Shown piece after piece: positions 10,201 through 41,276 of a DNA stretch of 41,787 nucleotides. The stretch is from Nitrospirales bacterium (GTDB lineage: Bacteria > Nitrospirota > Nitrospiria > Nitrospirales > UBA8639). The DNA lies in NCBI GenBank assembly GCA_029261295.1, contig JAJDBP010000013.1:1-41787 (forward strand), read 5' to 3'. The first letter of the stretch is position 1. The number at the start of each line of letters is the position of its first letter. The position numbers and the translations under genes were made by a program. A model generated the notes under the pieces. The model had not been told where the DNA came from. It saw nothing but the letters and a program-made list of their open reading frames with translations, and searched no databases.

Positions 10201-11619
10201 TCAATTTTTTTGATGGGCAGATACGGCTTGAAATTTTTCTTCTGTTTCGAAATATTCGTCCTCTAGGTCTTTTTGTGCCACACCACTGGCCATGGCGGCT
10301 CTGGCGACGGCCTTGGTGACTGCTTCGTGAACGGTCGGATCTAAGGGACTGGGAACAATTTCGCCTTTAGGTGTTGTTTCGACGATGGCCTGCACTGCAG
10401 CCAGCAGCATCGCATCATTAATTTCTGTAGAATACGATTCCAATGCCCCTTTGAATATTCCAGGATAGGCTAACAAGTTGTTGACGTATCGGCCATCAGC
10501 ATAAAAGGCGGCTCCAGCTTGGAGCGCTTGTTCTTCAGTGATTTCAGGCACAGGATTCGTTAACGCCAGGATGATCTGTTGTGGTTTCACCATCGATGGG
10601 TCAATGAGCCCTTCGACACCTGTTGTTGATATCACCACGTCACATTGTGCCATGACCTCTTTTAAGGTCACGCTGTTTTGGCGAAATGCTTCGAGTCGAT
10701 CGACCGCGGCCTGATTCTTATCACAACACCACACCGGACGTTTGATATAGGCCATGATCAGTTTGGCAATGGCGCTTCCTGCGGCCCCCAGGCCAATTTG
10801 TCCGATTTGTATGTGCTCCAGATCGATATTCACGATGCGACAGGCATTGATGACCGCCGCCAGACACACGACAGCTGTGCCTTTTTGGTCATCATGCATG
10901 ACCGGCATATTCAGGTGTTCAATCAAGGCTGTTTCAATTTCAAAACATTCCGGCGCTGAAATATCTTCCAAATGAATGGCGCCAAATCCTGGTGAAATCC
11001 GTATGGCCGTTTCGATAAATTCCTGCGGGTCCATGGTATCAATGGGGATGGGAATCATATTGTAGCCGGTGAATTTTTTAAACAGCGCCGCCTTGCCTTC
11101 CATCACCGGCATGGCTGCCACCGGACCGATATTCCCCAACCCGAGGGTGCGACTCCCATTCGTCAGGAGGGCCACCGTGTTGTGAATCCATGTGTAATTG
11201 TTGGCCTCACTTGGATCTTTTTCAATGAGCCGGCAGACCTCAGCCACGCCCGGCGTGTACACCGCTTGCATGTCGCTGATTGTCTCAATTTGCGTATTGA
11301 CTTCCATCTTGATTTTTCCACCCTGATGGCGTTCGAGCACTTCATCAATAATTTGTTGAACTTTGGTCTGCTTTAAGGCTCGAATGGCTTTGAGAATTCG
11401 TGCAAAGTGTTCGCGATCTTGAGCAATGACGGTCACATCTCGCCAGATGTAATATTTTCCTAGTTTCTGTGTTTTGACATCCCCAATACTTCCACCTTCG
11501 TTCGCAATGGTGGTCAAAAAATCTGCTAAGACTCCAACTTGGTTGTCACTTTTGTAGCGGATCATTCGAATGAAGTCAGTTTTTACGCTCCTGGATTCCA
11601 TGACGGCTTGTTCTGGCAT
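10201..11619 (-). CDS. malic enzyme with N-terminal ACT domain (copy 1)
   Basis: 472 residues. Malic enzymes convert malate to pyruvate and CO2 while reducing NAD(P)+. An ACT domain (about 14-90, including IRYKSDNQVGVLADF) is an amino-acid or ligand-sensing module. The malic N-domain carries YTPGVAEVCR and GKAALFKKFTGY with the catalytic Tyr and Lys, plus the metal site region ECFEIE and HDDQKGTA. The NAD(P) domain has [15 protein letters not shown] or NAD preference cannot be read safely. ATG 11619 is preceded by AGGAGGA 12 bases upstream. A close paralogue lies at 39533-40924, with roughly four residues in five identical by eye. The gene is monocistronic. Confidence 0.93.
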   Translation of the reverse strand: MPEQAVMESRSVKTDFIRMIRYKSDNQVGVLADFLTTIANEGGSIGDVKTQKLGKYYIWRDVTVIAQDREHFARILKAIRALKQTKVQQIIDEVLERHQGGKIKMEVNTQIETISDMQAVYTPGVAEVCRLIEKDPSEANNYTWIHNTVALLTNGSRTLGLGNIGPVAAMPVMEGKAALFKKFTGYNMIPIPIDTMDPQEFIETAIRISPGFGAIHLEDISAPECFEIETALIEHLNMPVMHDDQKGTAVVCLAAVINACRIVNIDLEHIQIGQIGLGAAGSAIAKLIMAYIKRPVWCCDKNQAAVDRLEAFRQNSVTLKEVMAQCDVVISTTGVEGLIDPSMVKPQQIILALTNPVPEITEEQALQAGAAFYADGRYVNNLLAYPGIFKGALESYSTEINDAMLLAAVQAIVETTPKGEIVPSPLDPTVHEAVTKAVARAAMASGVAQKDLEDEYFETEEKFQAVSAHQKN

Positions 11620-24293: not shown

Positions 24294-24521
24294 TTACTCT
24301 AAGATTAGATGAGTGAGGTAGGGAGCGAGTAGATATCCGACGATGGATAGGATCATTCCCAGTGCGGCTCCAAGCAACCCGCTGATATACACCCCTAAAA
24401 TGGGAAATAAAAATACGACCAGAATCATGATTTTGGCGATGTCTTTGTGCTCTTCATAAAATTTTTGACGTTGAGTACTCTTAAGTGAGTCGATCAATGA
24501 TAATTGGGAAGGGAAGGGCAT
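24294..24521 (-). CDS. small membrane protein, 75 residues
   Basis: I do not recognise a family. Residues about 1-28 are polar (STQRQKFYEEHKDIAK), followed by two hydrophobic helices (about 30-48 and 51-71) separated by a short turn, so it is a probable two-pass inner-membrane protein. ATG 24521 begins the only sensible frame, but the upstream bases are pyrimidine-rich with no ribosome site. It lies 93 bases downstream of the Cys-rich small gene on the same strand. Confidence 0.5.
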   Translation of the reverse strand: MPFPSQLSLIDSLKSTQRQKFYEEHKDIAKIMILVVFLFPILGVYISGLLGAALGMILSIVGYLLAPYLTHLILE

Positions 24522-24614
24522 GGAGATTAGAAAGGCACAAGGAGTAGGTGAAGACTCTATAGTAAAGAGCGATTTTTATCAGTCAGGCACCCTTGAATAG
24601 GGGCTATCTGGCTC

Positions 24615-24782
24615 CTACATTTCTTCTCCCCCCTCAAGGCATTCGGTACATTCATCCATTTTAGGGTCACCGTGTTTACTGCAATAATGTTGGGCGCATT
24701 GCCCGCAGGTCATAAAACTCATCCTGACCCATCCATCATTTCCGCATACATAACAATTTTTTTCTCGTTTGGCTTTTGGCAT
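24615..24782 (-). CDS. Cys-rich zinc-finger-like microprotein, 55 residues
   Basis: A short gene of 56 codons including the TAG stop. The protein starts MPKAKREKNCYVCG and contains seven Cys and two His in pairs: C10/C13, C26/C29, H32/C34, H37 and C45/C48. This is the layout of a compact double zinc-binding finger. ATG 24780-24782 is preceded on the minus strand by AAAGGAAA with good spacing. Its length and Cys spacing make chance unlikely. It is divergent from the zinc-ribbon/helicase pair about 400 bases to the right. Function unknown; a DNA, RNA or protein contact is plausible. Confidence 0.78.
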   Translation of the reverse strand: MPKAKREKNCYVCGNDGWVRMSFMTCGQCAQHYCSKHGDPKMDECTECLEGGEEM

Positions 24783-24983
24783 CCGTTGTTTCCTTTAAGG
24801 TGATCGTGTCAGCAAATTTCCACAGTCTTGTGGGAGGAGTTCCTGCTTTTAGCGATAAGAAAAGGCTGATGTTCCCCAAGGTTTTAGATGGGGGTTTATA
24901 TTGGGAAACATTACGAAATAGGTGTTGTCGTGGAAGCAGGGAGCGGAGCCTACTATATGAGTCCAGCTTCTGGCAAACCGGAA

Positions 24984-25014
24984 AGGCAGATTTGTGGATA
25001 AACCAAATCTGCCT
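24984..25014. other. perfect 11-bp hairpin
   Basis: AGGCAGATTTG at 24984-24994 and CAAATCTGCCT at 25004-25014 are exact reverse complements around a 9-base loop. No T tract follows on the plus strand. It sits in the roughly 400-base gap between the divergent Cys-rich microprotein gene and the zinc-ribbon gene, otherwise empty, so it may be a regulatory palindrome or a structured leader. Confidence 0.55.
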
Positions 25015-25186
25015 GAAAAGGTATTGCATGGAGTCAAATTTTCTTCCCAGGATAAGCGTTTGGAATTTGATTGCCAAGTTGACCTCATTTTGGGTATCTC
25101 TATACTTTACCTGGGGGTTATGTTGTGTCTGAATGTTCAGCCCGGCGAGTGAACACCTTTTGATTCCACAAAGAAAGGAACCCGGT

Positions 25187-25411
25187 ATGGCTTGTGCTCG
25201 ATGTGGCGGACTGATTGTGAAGGAGTCTGTGTATGACAGGGAGGGGAGCAGCCAGGTTATTCAAATGGATCGCTGTCTCCAATGCGGGCATATTGAAGAT
25301 CCCGTGAGTGCACGTAATCGTGCGCAGATAAGCCAATCTCCGAATCAGAAAGGGAAGGTTCGACGCGATCCCGAACATCCATACCCTCCGATTCAATTAG
25401 CTAAAGGGTAG
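25187..25411 (+). CDS. small zinc-ribbon protein
   Basis: 74 residues. Two CxxC knuckles, C3/C6 (CARCGG) and C30/C33 (CLQCGH), form a one-zinc ribbon in the first half; the second half is a Gln/Lys/Pro-rich tail without structure. ATG 25187 follows AAGAAAGGAACCC. The frame is open further left, but the added residues have no ribbon character. It ends one base before the ATG of the helicase gene, so the two are translationally coupled and likely work together. It may be a nucleic-acid-binding or protein-contact subunit; no family is recognised beyond the ribbon. Confidence 0.8.
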   Translation: MACARCGGLIVKESVYDREGSSQVIQMDRCLQCGHIEDPVSARNRAQISQSPNQKGKVRRDPEHPYPPIQLAKG

Positions 25412-25412
25412 G

Positions 25413-27023
25413 ATGCAGCTTCGTCGGCATCAACGGGAATTAGAAAAAATTTGCCAAGAAGTACTGAATGGGCGAGGTCTGAAAGACATCGTCTGTGCGG
25501 TCACACCCGGTGGAGGAAAGAGCCTGCTGCCACAGATTCTTGCGGCACGGTTGATTCCCACGGTCGCGGACGGCCTGTGTTGGATTGTCCCACGCAGCGT
25601 CTTGCAAGATCAGGGTGCTCGCGGTTTCCAGAATCCTAGCCATCGAGCCCTTGTCGACCATAGGTTGGAGGCCATGATGGCCACTAATCAAGCCAATCCA
25701 ACCAGGGGTTGTGCTGCCTATGTCACCACCTATCAAGCCTTAGCCGCGGATACTCGCAAAGCCAACGTCAAAGAATTTCGAAGAAAGCGGTATATACTCG
25801 TCCTGGATGAACCGCATCATCTTGAGGAAGCTGGTATGTGGCATGAGGCTATTCAGCCCCTCTATGATCAGGCTGTTCTGAGGGTATTGATGAGTGGAAC
25901 ATTCGAGCGTGGGGACCGAACGCCGATCGCCTTTCTGCCATATATAGACTCTGATCGTGGAGACCGAATTGATTGGGATTGCACGGATTCCCGTGCGGTG
26001 ATTCGCTATACCTTAGCGGATGCTCTGAGTGAGCATGCCTGCATTGATCTTACCGTTCATTACGCAAACTGCCAGGCCACATGGTTGGATGCTGAGGGAG
26101 TTGAGCATCATGTTGAAAGCTTAGCGCAGGCCGGGAAGCAATCGGCTGCGGCACTTCTCACTGCGCTAAAAACTGAAGCAGCGCTTGAGCTTTTGGGTAC
26201 TGGGGTGAAGGATTGGAAAGTTCACCGTGTGACCCACCCACGATCGAAGCTCTTGGTGGTAGCCGCTAATATAGAACAAGCGCAAAAGTATACGGCCTGG
26301 CTTCAGTCACGCGGTGTGCCTGGCCAAATTGCCACGAGTGAAGATTCCACAGCAGCTTATCAGGCAATCAAGGCTTTTAAACGGCAGGGTCCTGGTGCCG
26401 TAGATTGCCTGATTACTGTCGCGATGGCGTATGAAGGCCTAGATGTGCCGGCGATCACCCATCTCATTTGTTTAACCCATATACGAACGAAACCCTGGAT
26501 TGAGCAGGTTGTCCATCGGGCGACACGCATGGATCCATTAGCTGGACCCTACGATGATCAACGTGCGTATATTTATGCTCCAGATGATCGGCCTTTCAGG
26601 GAATGTTTGGACTTCATCTTGGCGCAACGCCATACAGCGCTTGTGGGTGCTTCGCCATCAACATCGGTACTTGGTGAAGAGGTGTTCCCGAACCCCCAGG
26701 GGTTGTTTCACATGACTGATCGGGCGGAATCAAGTATTCAGCCGCTGCGATCAGGTGTTCTTGGCATGAGTAATCAAGCCTTGTGGGCCAATCTCGAGGT
26801 GCCCTCACAATCAGAAATCCATCAGGAGACACCAAAAGAACGACTTGATCGTTTACGGAAACAAATCGAAAAACATGTTCGCACGCATGAACAATCTCGA
26901 AGGCTTGCTCATGGGACAGTGAACCGCGCAGTCTATTCCCAATTTCGAAAATCTCGCACCGCCATGACGGAACCCGAACTTCATCGAGTCATCAAGTGGG
27001 TGAATAAGGCGTATCCTCTCTAG
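25413..27023 (+). CDS. SF2 DEAD/DEAH-type helicase (type III R / phage helicase-like)
   Basis: 536 residues. Helicase motifs in order: a Gln-containing N-terminus LRRHQREL, Walker A TPGGGKS (31-37), TTYQAL (motif Ib area), motif II LDEPHH (DEPH instead of DEAH, 132-135), SGTFER (161-166), motif V AYEGLDVP (339-346) and motif VI QVVHRATR (365-372). The layout resembles helicases of restriction systems and phages. After about 430 the C-terminal part has a charged helix and ends with a small domain (FRKSRTAMTEPELHRVIKWV) of the type seen in phage-related proteins. ATG 25413 directly follows the zinc-ribbon stop. No nuclease or methylase gene is adjacent. Role unknown. Confidence 0.85.
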   Translation: MQLRRHQRELEKICQEVLNGRGLKDIVCAVTPGGGKSLLPQILAARLIPTVADGLCWIVPRSVLQDQGARGFQNPSHRALVDHRLEAMMATNQANPTRGCAAYVTTYQALAADTRKANVKEFRRKRYILVLDEPHHLEEAGMWHEAIQPLYDQAVLRVLMSGTFERGDRTPIAFLPYIDSDRGDRIDWDCTDSRAVIRYTLADALSEHACIDLTVHYANCQATWLDAEGVEHHVESLAQAGKQSAAALLTALKTEAALELLGTGVKDWKVHRVTHPRSKLLVVAANIEQAQKYTAWLQSRGVPGQIATSEDSTAAYQAIKAFKRQGPGAVDCLITVAMAYEGLDVPAITHLICLTHIRTKPWIEQVVHRATRMDPLAGPYDDQRAYIYAPDDRPFRECLDFILAQRHTALVGASPSTSVLGEEVFPNPQGLFHMTDRAESSIQPLRSGVLGMSNQALWANLEVPSQSEIHQETPKERLDRLRKQIEKHVRTHEQSRRLAHGTVNRAVYSQFRKSRTAMTEPELHRVIKWVNKAYPL

Positions 27024-27095
27024 TCTTGAAGATCTTTTCATTGTATTGACGTCTCGTCAGATCGTCGGAATCTCTCACAAGAAATAGCGCAACCC

Positions 27096-28271
27096 ATGAG
27101 TCATGAAGTTTACTATGAAGGTTCGCCATTTTTTTCCTATGGATTTCGTCCGTTCTTTCTCAGTGCGGCACTTTTTGCTGGCATTGCTGTGCCTCTTTGG
27201 GTGTTCATCCTGACTGGGATAGACGAAGTGACCTTCCATTATCCTCCTCGTGAATGGCATGTGCATGAAATGGTGTTTGGCTTTCTGCCTTGTGTCATCA
27301 CTGGGTTCATACTGACAGCCCTTCCTAATTGGACCGATCGTTCTCCTCTTAGAGGACTTCCTCTCGTCCTTCTTGTGCTGTTGTGGGGAACAGGACGTCT
27401 TGTTATCGCCATCCCGTGGTTTCCGCCTCTTTCCGTGGCCATTATTGACGGCGCGTTTCTGGTCGTGGTGGCGAGTGTGGTATTTCGAGAAATTGCCATC
27501 GGACGAGTTTGGAATCGACTACCAATAGGAATTCTTCTTAGTGTCTACGCCAGTGCGAATATCCTTTTTCACGTGTTGTTGCTCAATGATAAACCCACGG
27601 ATCTTGCTGAACGAATGGCCCTGTCTCTTGTCATGATCTTGCTTGCCCTGATCGGTGGACGCATTACTCCGAGTTTTACCGAAGATTATTTTCTTGAAAG
27701 GTCTATCCTCAAACCGTCAGTACCGTTTTCTCTTTTCGATGGGCTTTCGATTATGATCATCGTCGTCGCGGCTATCAGCTGGATACTCAATCCTCAAGGC
27801 CAGGTGACCGGGTGGCTATTTTTGGCAGGTGGTGCCATCAATCTGATCCGTCTCACTCGTTGGCAGGGATGGGTCACCTGGCGTGAGCCATTGGTGCTCA
27901 TCCTGCATGTGGGGTATGGCTGGTTGGGGGTGTCACTGTTGCTTCTGGGAGGAGCCATTCTTGCCATAGGCTTACCGGTAGAGGATGCTATACATGCACT
28001 GACCACTGGAGCGGTTGGTGTGATGACGTTGGCGGTCATGACCCGAGCAAGCTTGGGCCATACCGGACGGGCCAAGCTTGCTGGTTCTTTAACCATTATC
28101 ATTTTTCTGTTAGTAAATTTGGGTGCAGTACTACGAGTCTTCGGACCGAGCCTAGCCTTGTCGGGCGATAGCATTCTTGCGTTGGCTGGAGGTAGTTGGA
28201 GTGGGGCCTATCTGTTGTTCGCCATCGGCTATGGGCACATTCTCTTTGGAGGAAATCTAGCGGACGAGTGA
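27096..28271 (+). CDS. NnrS family membrane protein
   Basis: 391-residue polytopic inner-membrane protein with about twelve hydrophobic segments. The start PFFSYGFRPFFLSAALFAG and the motif EWHVHEMVFGF near 52-62 are hallmarks of NnrS, a heme- and copper-linked protein that relieves nitric-oxide stress in denitrifiers and other bacteria. His residues in the N-terminal helices are candidate metal ligands. ATG 27096 fits the family. It lies 72 bases after the helicase and 65 bases before the RbgA gene, all on the same strand. Its presence suggests exposure to NO or nitrite metabolism; no NO reductase is in the window. Confidence 0.92.
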   Translation: MSHEVYYEGSPFFSYGFRPFFLSAALFAGIAVPLWVFILTGIDEVTFHYPPREWHVHEMVFGFLPCVITGFILTALPNWTDRSPLRGLPLVLLVLLWGTGRLVIAIPWFPPLSVAIIDGAFLVVVASVVFREIAIGRVWNRLPIGILLSVYASANILFHVLLLNDKPTDLAERMALSLVMILLALIGGRITPSFTEDYFLERSILKPSVPFSLFDGLSIMIIVVAAISWILNPQGQVTGWLFLAGGAINLIRLTRWQGWVTWREPLVLILHVGYGWLGVSLLLLGGAILAIGLPVEDAIHALTTGAVGVMTLAVMTRASLGHTGRAKLAGSLTIIIFLLVNLGAVLRVFGPSLALSGDSILALAGGSWSGAYLLFAIGYGHILFGGNLADE

Positions 28272-28336
28272 TTGAACCGATACTTGATCAGGTCACGAAT
28301 GGAAACGATTATTTTCAGATAAAGGATACAAGCACG

Positions 28337-29194
28337 ATGGCTATACAATGGTTCCCAGGTCATATGAATACCGCTCGGAGAGAAGCCGAGAAAAAGATGG
28401 AAACGATTGATGTCGTCATCGAGCTGCTTGATGCACGGATGCCGGAAGCTAGCAGTAATCCCATGATTACTGAACTGCGTCTGCATCGTCAGCGACCGTG
28501 TTTGAAGGTGCTCAATAAGGCGGATCTGGCGGACCCTGCGGTGACGAAAGCTTGGCTTACTATGTATAACCAGCAGGAAGGGGTTAATGCCGTGGCTCTT
28601 TCCTGTAACAAGCCCGGGCAGGCTGCAAAGGTGCCCAATCTTTGTCAGCCCTTGGCTCCCCATCGAAATAGCTCAACTAAGCCACTTCGCATGCTCATCA
28701 TGGGCATTCCCAACGTTGGCAAATCTACGTTCATGAATATGCTGATCAACCGTCGTCTCGCCAAAGTAGGGAACGAACCTGCTGTCACGAGAATGCAGCA
28801 ACGTCATACCTTGAATGATCGAATGACGCTCATTGACTCACCTGGCCTCTTGTGGCCAAAAATTGAAGATCCGATCGTGGGTTTTAAGCTGGCCACCATC
28901 TATGCGGTGACGGCCAAGATTATAGTCGACGAAGAAGTCGCAGAGTTTCTTGCGAATATTCTTCTCGCGCGTTACCCGGAGTTGCTTGCAAAACGATATG
29001 GGTACAAGGGAGACGACCCGAATTGTGACGATCTTCTCGCGGTTATTGCTACCAAACGGGGTTGTCTTTCAAAGGGAAGGGGTGGGGGGCCGGATAGAGA
29101 AAAAGCCGCTAAGATTCTGCTCCACGAATATCGTAATGGCATCTTGGGTCGCACTAGTCTGGAAGAGCCGGAATGTGGTGAGCCTCTGGCCTAA
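28337..29194 (+). CDS. rbgA: ribosome biogenesis GTPase RbgA (YlqF)
   Basis: 285-residue circularly permuted GTPase needed for late assembly of the 50S ribosomal subunit. The permuted order is visible: G4 NKAD (60-63) and G5-like SCN come before G1 GIPNVGKST (123-131), then G3 DSPG (167-170). It opens with MAIQWFPGHMNTA, the standard family N-terminus, and has the C-terminal ANTAR-like helical part. ATG 28337 is preceded by AAAGGA at long spacing; the frame is open upstream into the NnrS gene, but those residues do not belong. It may be read through from the NnrS gene. Confidence 0.94.
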   Translation: MAIQWFPGHMNTARREAEKKMETIDVVIELLDARMPEASSNPMITELRLHRQRPCLKVLNKADLADPAVTKAWLTMYNQQEGVNAVALSCNKPGQAAKVPNLCQPLAPHRNSSTKPLRMLIMGIPNVGKSTFMNMLINRRLAKVGNEPAVTRMQQRHTLNDRMTLIDSPGLLWPKIEDPIVGFKLATIYAVTAKIIVDEEVAEFLANILLARYPELLAKRYGYKGDDPNCDDLLAVIATKRGCLSKGRGGGPDREKAAKILLHEYRNGILGRTSLEEPECGEPLA

Positions 29195-39532: not shown

Positions 39533-40924
39533 TTACATTTTTTCCTCAACATCGAAATATTCCTCGTCCAGATCCTTTTGCGCGATGCCACTCGTCATGG
39601 CGGCCTTGGCGACAGCCTTGGTAACAGCCCGATGAACCATGGGGTCCAGAGGACTCGGAACAATTTCACCTTGAGGCGTGGCATCGACGATAGCCTGAAC
39701 GGCGGCGAGTAGCATGGGATCGTTGATCCCCGTTGCTCGGGTTTCCAATGCCCCTTTGAAAATGCCGGGATAGGCCAGCAAGTTGTTGACGTACCGACCA
39801 TCAGAGTAGAAGGCGGCTCCCGCGTTCAACGCTTGCTCCTCGGTGATTTCTGGAACGGGGTTGGTCAACGCCAGGATAATTTGTTGCGGTCTTACCATGG
39901 ACGGGTCAATTAAGCGTTCAACTCCAGTGGTTGAAATCACGACGTCGCAACGCTCCATGATTTCTTCTAAGGTGGCACTGTTCTGACGAAATTCTTCGAG
40001 CCGATTAACAGCAGCGGGATTCTTGTCACAGCACCAAACATTCCGTTTCGTATAGGCCATGATCAACCGGGCAATGGCACTTCCGGCGGCACCAAGTCCA
40101 ACCTGACCTATTTGGACATTCGCCAAATCGCCTTTGACCATTCGGCAGGCATTGATGACCGCAGCTAAACAAACAACGGCGGTTCCATCTTGGTCATCAT
40201 GCATGACGGGAATATTCAAGCGTTTCACCAATGCAGCTTCAATTTCAAAACATTCAGGCGCCGAGATATCCTCCAAATGAATCGCTCCGAATCCTGCGGA
40301 GATTTGAATAGCCGTCTCAATAAACTCCTGCGGGTCTTTGGAGAGGATGGGAATCGGGATCATATTATAGCCGGTGAATTTACTAAATAGAGCGGCTTTA
40401 CCTTCCATTACAGGCATGGCTGCCACAGGACCGATGTCCCCCAACCCGAGGGTACGGGTTCCATTGGTCAAGAGGGCAACAGTCTGGTGAATCCAAGTGT
40501 AATTGTAGGCCTCATCGGGATCCTTCTGAATAAGCCGACACACATCCGCCACCCCTGGGGTGTACACCGCCCGCATATCGTTGACCGTCTCAATCTGGTG
40601 GTTTATTACCATCTTAATTTTTCCACCTTGATGCCGTTCAAGCACCTCATCGATAATTTGCTCAACTTTGGTCTGCGGTAAGGCTCGGATCGCTTTTATG
40701 ATCTGCGCAAAGTGTTCCCGGTCCTGAGCAATAATGGTCACATCTCGCCAGATGTAAAATTTCCCAAGCTTCCGCGTTGTGACATCACCTACACTTCCGC
40801 CTTCGCTAGCAATGGCTGTCATAAATTGCGCCAATACCCCAACGTGGTTCTCGCTCTTGTAGCGGACCATCCGGATGAATTCTGTTTTTCCCGTTCGAGA
40901 CAGGATGGGCTTATGATCTAACAT
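39533..40924 (-). CDS. malic enzyme with N-terminal ACT domain (copy 2)
   Basis: 463 residues. Same architecture as the enzyme at 10201-11619: ACT domain (about 8-85, [18 protein letters not shown]), then [34 protein letters not shown] and the dinucleotide loop [11 protein letters not shown]. Catalytic residues are conserved. ATG 40924 is chosen over an upstream TTG because GGAG lies about 10 bases before it. The divergence between copies is moderate and both look intact, so they may differ in cofactor or regulation. It is convergent with the broken hydrolase and lies left of a repeat-rich stretch. Confidence 0.93.
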
Positions 40925-41276
40925 GGTCTTTTGTCTCCATTGATTGTCAGGGCACAAGCCGTCTGTTGCATTCTCTCATGACACCGGAAAGATTAACAGG
41001 CAAGCAGATTTTAGGGTGATAATAACGTGGATGGGGGTACATGGTGAAGGGTATGGCTACGATTGACCCTTTGAAAGAGCGTCCTGACAACAGTTGTGAT
41101 AATTTTGGAACAAGATAGGGATGTAAATCCCTACGATCATAACGAGGTAGGCACTATTCTTTATGATAGAAATTTAACCTATAAAAAACAAGGGGTAAAA
41201 TAGTGCTTAGGGGGGCATAGACAGACATGATCCGCGAACTCTCGTAATTGCTGGGAGCGATAATCGTCACGGGGAA

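Follow-up and report, generated by a model that had tools for sequence, protein, structure and literature searches.

How a solitary SF2 helicase came to be encoded in a Nitrospirales chromosome directly behind a small zinc ribbon, and what the two proteins may do there, is the question raised by the locus described here. It lies in a window of 41,787 nucleotides (the whole stretch of DNA that was analysed; assembly GCA_029261295.1, contig JAJDBP010000013.1). The source genome belongs to the Nitrospirales, and its relatives include Nitrospirales bacterium NPIRA03, OFTM76 and UBA8639.

The gene pair and its predicted products

The features of the locus are listed in Table 1. The TAG stop codon of the ribbon gene occupies positions 25409–25411 and is followed, after a gap of one base, by the helicase ATG at 25413, exactly as the earlier note on this DNA had read it. 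In the 13 genomes measured, the end of the ribbon frame and the start of the helicase are no more than a few bases apart, and as this close spacing has been kept in all of them it cannot be attributed to chance; both proteins are probably made from the same message. An alternative in-frame ATG is present at 25133, upstream of the ribbon start at 25187, but the latter was favoured because of its conservation and of a GAAAGGA-like ribosome-binding site located upstream of the ribbon, which is conserved among the genomes compared. Calculated from unsaturated pairs only, mean pairwise dN/dS was 0.067 in the helicase and 0.107 in the ribbon, low values which support that both genes encode proteins under constraint (purifying selection).

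Table 1. Features of the ribbon-helicase locus (positions in the window)
Feature	Positions	Strand	Remarks
Cys-rich protein	24615-24782	-	55 aa, MPKAKREKNCYVC...; conserved upstream flank of the site
Putative promoter block TTGACC-N16-TATACT	25079-25106	+	contains the conserved string TTTGGGTATCTCTA (25089-25102)
Cys4 mini zinc ribbon	25187-25411	+	74 aa; two Cx2C pairs (CARC...CLQC); orthologue linked to the helicase; C-terminal tail conserved
Phage-type SF2 helicase/translocase	25413-27023	+	536 aa
Helicase C-terminal three-helix module	26835-27020	+	residues about 475-536; common to phage homologues
NnrS gene	27096-28271	+	found between helicase and RbgA only in a subset of relatives
RbgA/YlqF-type GTPase gene	28334-29194	+	conserved downstream flank of the site

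A block resembling TTTGGGTATCTCTA, with small changes, is also found upstream in G040 and G039, where the ribbon is present, and in G027 and G028, where it is absent; from its sequence, the block in Table 1 may act as a promoter. The exact string TTTGGGTATCTCTA occurs once in its own genome. The upstream string TTTGGGTATCTSTA has one exact site in its own genome and four one-mismatch sites, versus two for a control, and a regulon under this string was ruled out by these counts. The intergenic DNA preceding the ribbon gene contains an inverted repeat, GGCAGATTTG...CAAATCTGCC (24985–25013). An Rfam scan of positions 24500–27500, this repeat included, gave no match.

All SF2 motifs are intact in the helicase (motif I TPGGGKS, motif II DEPH, SGT, VAMAYEGLD and QVVHRATR), which makes it a homologous SF2 motor to UvsW and D10 of bacteriophages T4 and T5. 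The DEPH form of motif II, previously regarded as unusual, turned out to be a local version of the DExH box, the residue of which varies inside the family (DEPH 16, DEFH 6, DECH 3, and others). Pfam models ResIII (6.8e-10), DEAD and Helicase_C, all generic SF2 models, matched over their cut-offs, and the PHROG 'DNA helicase' phrog_16 matched at 2e-24. Assignment to a well-known housekeeping family was not obtained, as no NCBIfam equivalog came close to its cut-off and a single-sequence phmmer search against the PDB gave no match. In profile comparisons HsdR had the best single score (6e-8), RadD scored 1.5e-6, and UvsW (0.0086) ranked below RadD, UvrB and HsdR. An AlphaFold2 model built from 32 sequences (mean pLDDT 83.9, pTM 0.71) had SF2 translocases and helicases as its fold neighbours, with XPB, FANCM and RadD among the best (Z 22–24 over 336–350 residues, 3.3–4.8 Å); the near-tied Z rows of this predicted structure single out no one SF2 family. 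As profile and fold matches are spread broadly over SF2 translocases and helicases, UvsW is not singled out either. The three helices of the C-terminal module alone produced no PDB fold match, which is no proof of a new fold.

The ribbon is one of about 5–14 paralogues per genome of the genus, and the mini zinc-ribbon family to which it belongs was found in 52 of the 57 genomes sampled across the order. Members of this multicopy family, with the pattern C-x2-C...C-x2-CG...DPVI..NR, are scattered over Nitrospirales genomes, with seven further loci (L046–L052) in its own genome. No function for the family was found in the libraries searched, and the ribbon had no match among annotated phage records. 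In the ribbon tree the helicase-linked ribbons grouped together (98/97), and they have a C-terminal tail of their own.

Distribution and chromosomal site in the Nitrospirales

A helicase match was detected in 17 of the 20 genomes of the same genus (g1), the orthologues being mostly about 79–87% identical, aside from a divergent copy in genome G041; the three genomes without a match are 81–84% complete, and the helicase frame is broken in the draft genome G033. The helicase is also present in two sister genera, in g7 and in two of three g10 genomes (74–77% identity). Five g9 genomes and most of the sampled Nitrospira (f2) genomes contain only a relative with 25–30% identity that belongs to a separate clade, and within the family the helicase is limited to g1, g7 and g10.

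In these three genera the gene occupies a common site, with the order Cys-rich gene (minus strand), ribbon (none in g10), helicase, sometimes NnrS, and RbgA/YlqF-type GTPase gene; a SulP transporter and a CBS protein are the other annotated neighbours in the window. The expected co-occurrence of ribbon and helicase holds across g1 and its sister genus g7, where the ribbon is immediately upstream of the helicase in every locus with visible upstream DNA, but the g10 helicase has no ribbon beside it, and G041 has kept the ribbon despite a decayed helicase. The linkage has thus been maintained without being strictly required, the ribbon being dispensable alongside the helicase in g10. In G020 the Cys-rich gene is directly beside RbgA, both ribbon and helicase being absent, and in G018 NnrS is beside RbgA with no helicase; thus, the pair sits between flanks that also occur without it.

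The syntenic site shared by the relatives supports a conserved, vertically inherited chromosomal locus and not a prophage. Membership of the window locus in a prophage was ruled out by this synteny, the housekeeping neighbours and the lack of a phage structural or lysogeny setting. Composition here resembles that of the host, so that no compositional sign of a foreign origin is seen.

The 55-aa Cys-rich protein is kept at the site in g1, g7, g8 and g10, and in two genomes of Nitrospira f2 (L095, L099) relatives of it (52–56%) are also encoded at a distance of about 1 kb from the helicase of the separate clade. Elsewhere in the window, two proteins of 472 and 474 aa, encoded on the minus strand at 10201–11619 and 39533–40957, about 28 kb apart, have similar N-termini (KT.FIRM.RYKS.N.VGVLA.F.T.IA.EGGS.GDV) and are apparently paralogues, as judged from this similarity.

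Viral relatives and a phage-like contig

Relatives of the helicase, all found by the alignment query only, are encoded by 30 viral contigs, mostly at full length and with 33–46% identity, and are closer to the window helicase than the Nitrospira f2 helicases (25–30%). No close viral relatives emerged when single-sequence patterns of P0002 or the G041 copy were used instead. In two trees, the second of which was built without the longest branches, the Nitrospirales copies grouped with copies from viruses and plasmids in a single clade (100/100) that excluded the f2 and g9 helicases; the base of this clade is a polytomy. The window helicase bears the signature of the clade, consisting of (V)TPGGGKS, DExHH, VAMAYEGLD, HIRxxPWxEQ and the tail LR..I....K.R..M...EL. 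Presence of the same tail in phage homologues justifies the earlier description of the C-terminal end as phage-like.

The viral copies share a recurrent neighbourhood. SbcC/SbcD-like proteins are encoded beside them at 19 of 31 loci in one neighbour cluster, with others recognised by PHROG, and a phrog_13782-type protein at 20 of 31, an association that is common, not universal, among the viral members. SSB and resolvase-like endonuclease genes recur nearby, and terminase or portal genes are in reach at several loci. When one phrog_13782-type protein served as a single-sequence query, the only matches were the protein itself and one further contig. Beside the host helicase, the neighbours of which are housekeeping genes, neither an SbcC/SbcD nor a phrog_13782-type gene was found, and no SbcCD or annealing gene is adjacent to it; the association was seen only at the phage copy of G041.

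At the native site of G041 the ribbon is retained (97% identical) and the helicase has decayed, with stops, residues 1–73 and 447–536 still being recognisable. Contig C202 of the same genome encodes a second, divergent pair (ribbon 36%, helicase 60%), with the ribbon again upstream of the helicase. Its structural genes include those for a major head protein, a head maturation protease, a tail sheath and baseplate proteins, and it further encodes a phrog_13782-type protein, proteins resembling SbcC and a Holliday-junction resolvase, a DnaD-like helicase loader and two methyltransferases. The C202 helicase was sister to the chromosomal Nitrospirales clade in both trees, and its ribbon had no resolved placement in the ribbon tree. 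C202 (L161–L163), a contig of a Nitrospirales genome, is thus phage-like and bears genes for a contractile tail; at its end is a repetitive ORF with SLDASLRASLL repeats (L088, 12688–13230).

Origin and possible role of the pair

We compared the helicase with known and solitary SF2 proteins. Bacteriophage T5 D10, a demonstrated branch-migration helicase (PMC5180179), is likewise a stand-alone SF2 helicase with the same motif order (profile match over residues 27–372, E 1.5e-7), and it adjoins the SbcD/SbcC-like D12/D13, neighbours of the kind seen at the viral relatives of the window helicase. However, identity is 19% over the core, D10 has 450 aa, the C-terminal module remains outside the alignment, and D10 is a phage gene whereas the window helicase is chromosomal with a ribbon upstream. 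T4 UvsW, an SF2 DNA helicase that serves phage recombination, gave the weak profile match mentioned above, and this match is confined to about 100 residues in the N-terminal motor domain. E. coli RadD (YejH), a solitary bacterial SF2 DNA repair protein, fits the predicted fold with Z 22–23 over about 335 residues (rmsd 4.2–4.8), but with 14–18% identity and with both profile and fold matches covering the motor only.

Solitary DEAD/DEAH helicases encoded on replicons of Azospirillum, Roseomonas, Lichenicola and Microvirga belong to the same clade and are about 31–36% identical over the full length, C-terminal tail included, but they are about 80–130 residues longer, lack the ribbon and have other neighbours. 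On the Azospirillum replicons L076 and L222, from two species, the helicase lies between a xyl operon and a LysR regulator, a neighbourhood common to A. lipoferum and A. ramasamyi. Azospirillum is a possible parallel case, and to judge from these sequences the helicase may have become fixed as a solitary gene on more than one occasion. The chromosomal SF2 helicases of Nitrospira (f2) and g9 have a similar size (about 520–560 aa), a similar tail and usually one copy per genome, but differ in their 25–30% identity, their separate clade (100/100), the absence of a ribbon upstream and another neighbourhood. Such a different SF2 helicase was present in nearly all Nitrospira f2 genomes sampled (e.g. 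L095–L101).

On balance we favour, with moderate confidence, the view that the window helicase is a phage-type SF2 dsDNA translocase with branch migration as its kind of activity, ordinarily one component of phage recombination/replication modules that also include an SbcC/SbcD-like nuclease. In one Nitrospirales lineage such a gene would have been captured and become fixed in the chromosome, where it stands alone and is inherited vertically. The transfer would have run from phage to host, a direction that rests on parsimony and on the prevalence of viral copies because the base of the clade is a polytomy. The opposite course, in which the helicase is a normal host repair protein of the RadD/XPB type and of bacterial ancestry that phages took from bacteria, would agree with a vertical, syntenic, single-copy gene under purifying selection, with RadD and XPB being among the best fold and profile matches, and with the solitary, syntenic state of the gene in two species of Azospirillum as well. 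Nevertheless, we consider it rather unlikely, as in the family only g1, g7 and g10 carry the helicase, the RbgA sites of G020 and G018 lack it, its closest relatives are viral and plasmid genes, and no full-length similarity to solved RadD emerged from the single-sequence phmmer search of the PDB. Replacement of RecG was ruled out, since RecG is encoded in the host genome.

The suggestion of a prophage or defence origin stands only in that the helicase is of a phage kind; the window locus is not in a prophage, and defence found no support. PADLOC analysis of the helicase and ten neighbours revealed nothing convincing and no full-length match to a defence model with its partners, and there was no enrichment near defence genes, the helicase itself giving only a partial 23-bit match. 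An uncharacterised, possibly phage-derived anti-phage module that senses or processes phage replication intermediates is accordingly an improbable reading. It would explain why a phage-type helicase is kept under selection, the weak PADLOC match being to PbeA, and why a phage-like contig in G041 bears its own pair while the native copy has decayed; against it, no nuclease or other effector is adjacent among the housekeeping neighbours, and the single site in nearly all relatives, strongly conserved and vertically inherited, is unlike patchy defence islands. That this is not a standard restriction system was correctly anticipated: the helicase has no nuclease domain, and its neighbours encode NnrS, the RbgA/YlqF-type GTPase, the SulP transporter and the CBS protein, with no nuclease or methylase among them. 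That the helicase is what remained of a Type I/III restriction translocase (HsdR/Res) after loss of its nuclease is extremely unlikely even though ResIII was the best Pfam model and HsdR the best profile score, since the ResIII model is generic for SF2 proteins, the relatives in viruses stand alone, have the same length and lack a conserved nuclease-methylase partner alongside, decay is confined to G041 (plus the broken frame of draft G033), and the helicase dN/dS is 0.067. We rejected this reading in view of the stand-alone family and the strong purifying selection.

With respect to the ribbon, a mini zinc ribbon of the host lineage, an accessory factor contacting DNA or protein is the most likely role. 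A regulatory partner of the helicase, for instance an inhibitor or an expression-linked factor, would be compatible with a captured phage-type helicase and could account for the position directly upstream, also seen in the G041 phage copy, and for the separate clade with its private tail; we hold it doubtful given the g10 helicases without a ribbon, the G041 ribbon kept at 97% without an intact helicase, and the many scattered paralogues of a family that is not helicase-specific.

If the captured phage-type helicase works as the context of its viral relatives and its predicted fold suggest, it would be active on branched DNA in replication or repair coupled to recombination, binding stalled forks, D-loops and Holliday junctions and pumping duplex DNA through its two RecA-like domains at the expense of ATP. 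Such pumping would drive branch migration, or cause forks to regress, in repair of this kind, with the C-terminal three-helix module supplying a DNA or partner contact and the upstream ribbon acting as an accessory DNA- or protein-contact factor. With RecG present, the host already has a branch-migration helicase, so this role would add to that of RecG; in E. coli, RadD partly overlaps RecG (PMC7470958). More speculatively, a phage helicase domesticated in this nitrifying lineage could have been given a host zinc-ribbon subunit and the resulting two-gene unit exchanged between host and phage, which, if true, would make the pair a host-phage exchangeable, two-component DNA-branch translocase. 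On this reading, a phage of the lineage has a divergent ribbon-helicase pair of its own in G041, the one genome with a decayed host copy.

The analysis delimits a helicase clade with a recurrent gene neighbourhood, for which the libraries searched hold no specific model. Moreover, a phage recombination helicase has apparently been fixed as a normal chromosomal gene in the Nitrospirales, which raises the testable question of whether a phage branch-migration motor is used for the bacterium's own repair, tuned by a small zinc ribbon.
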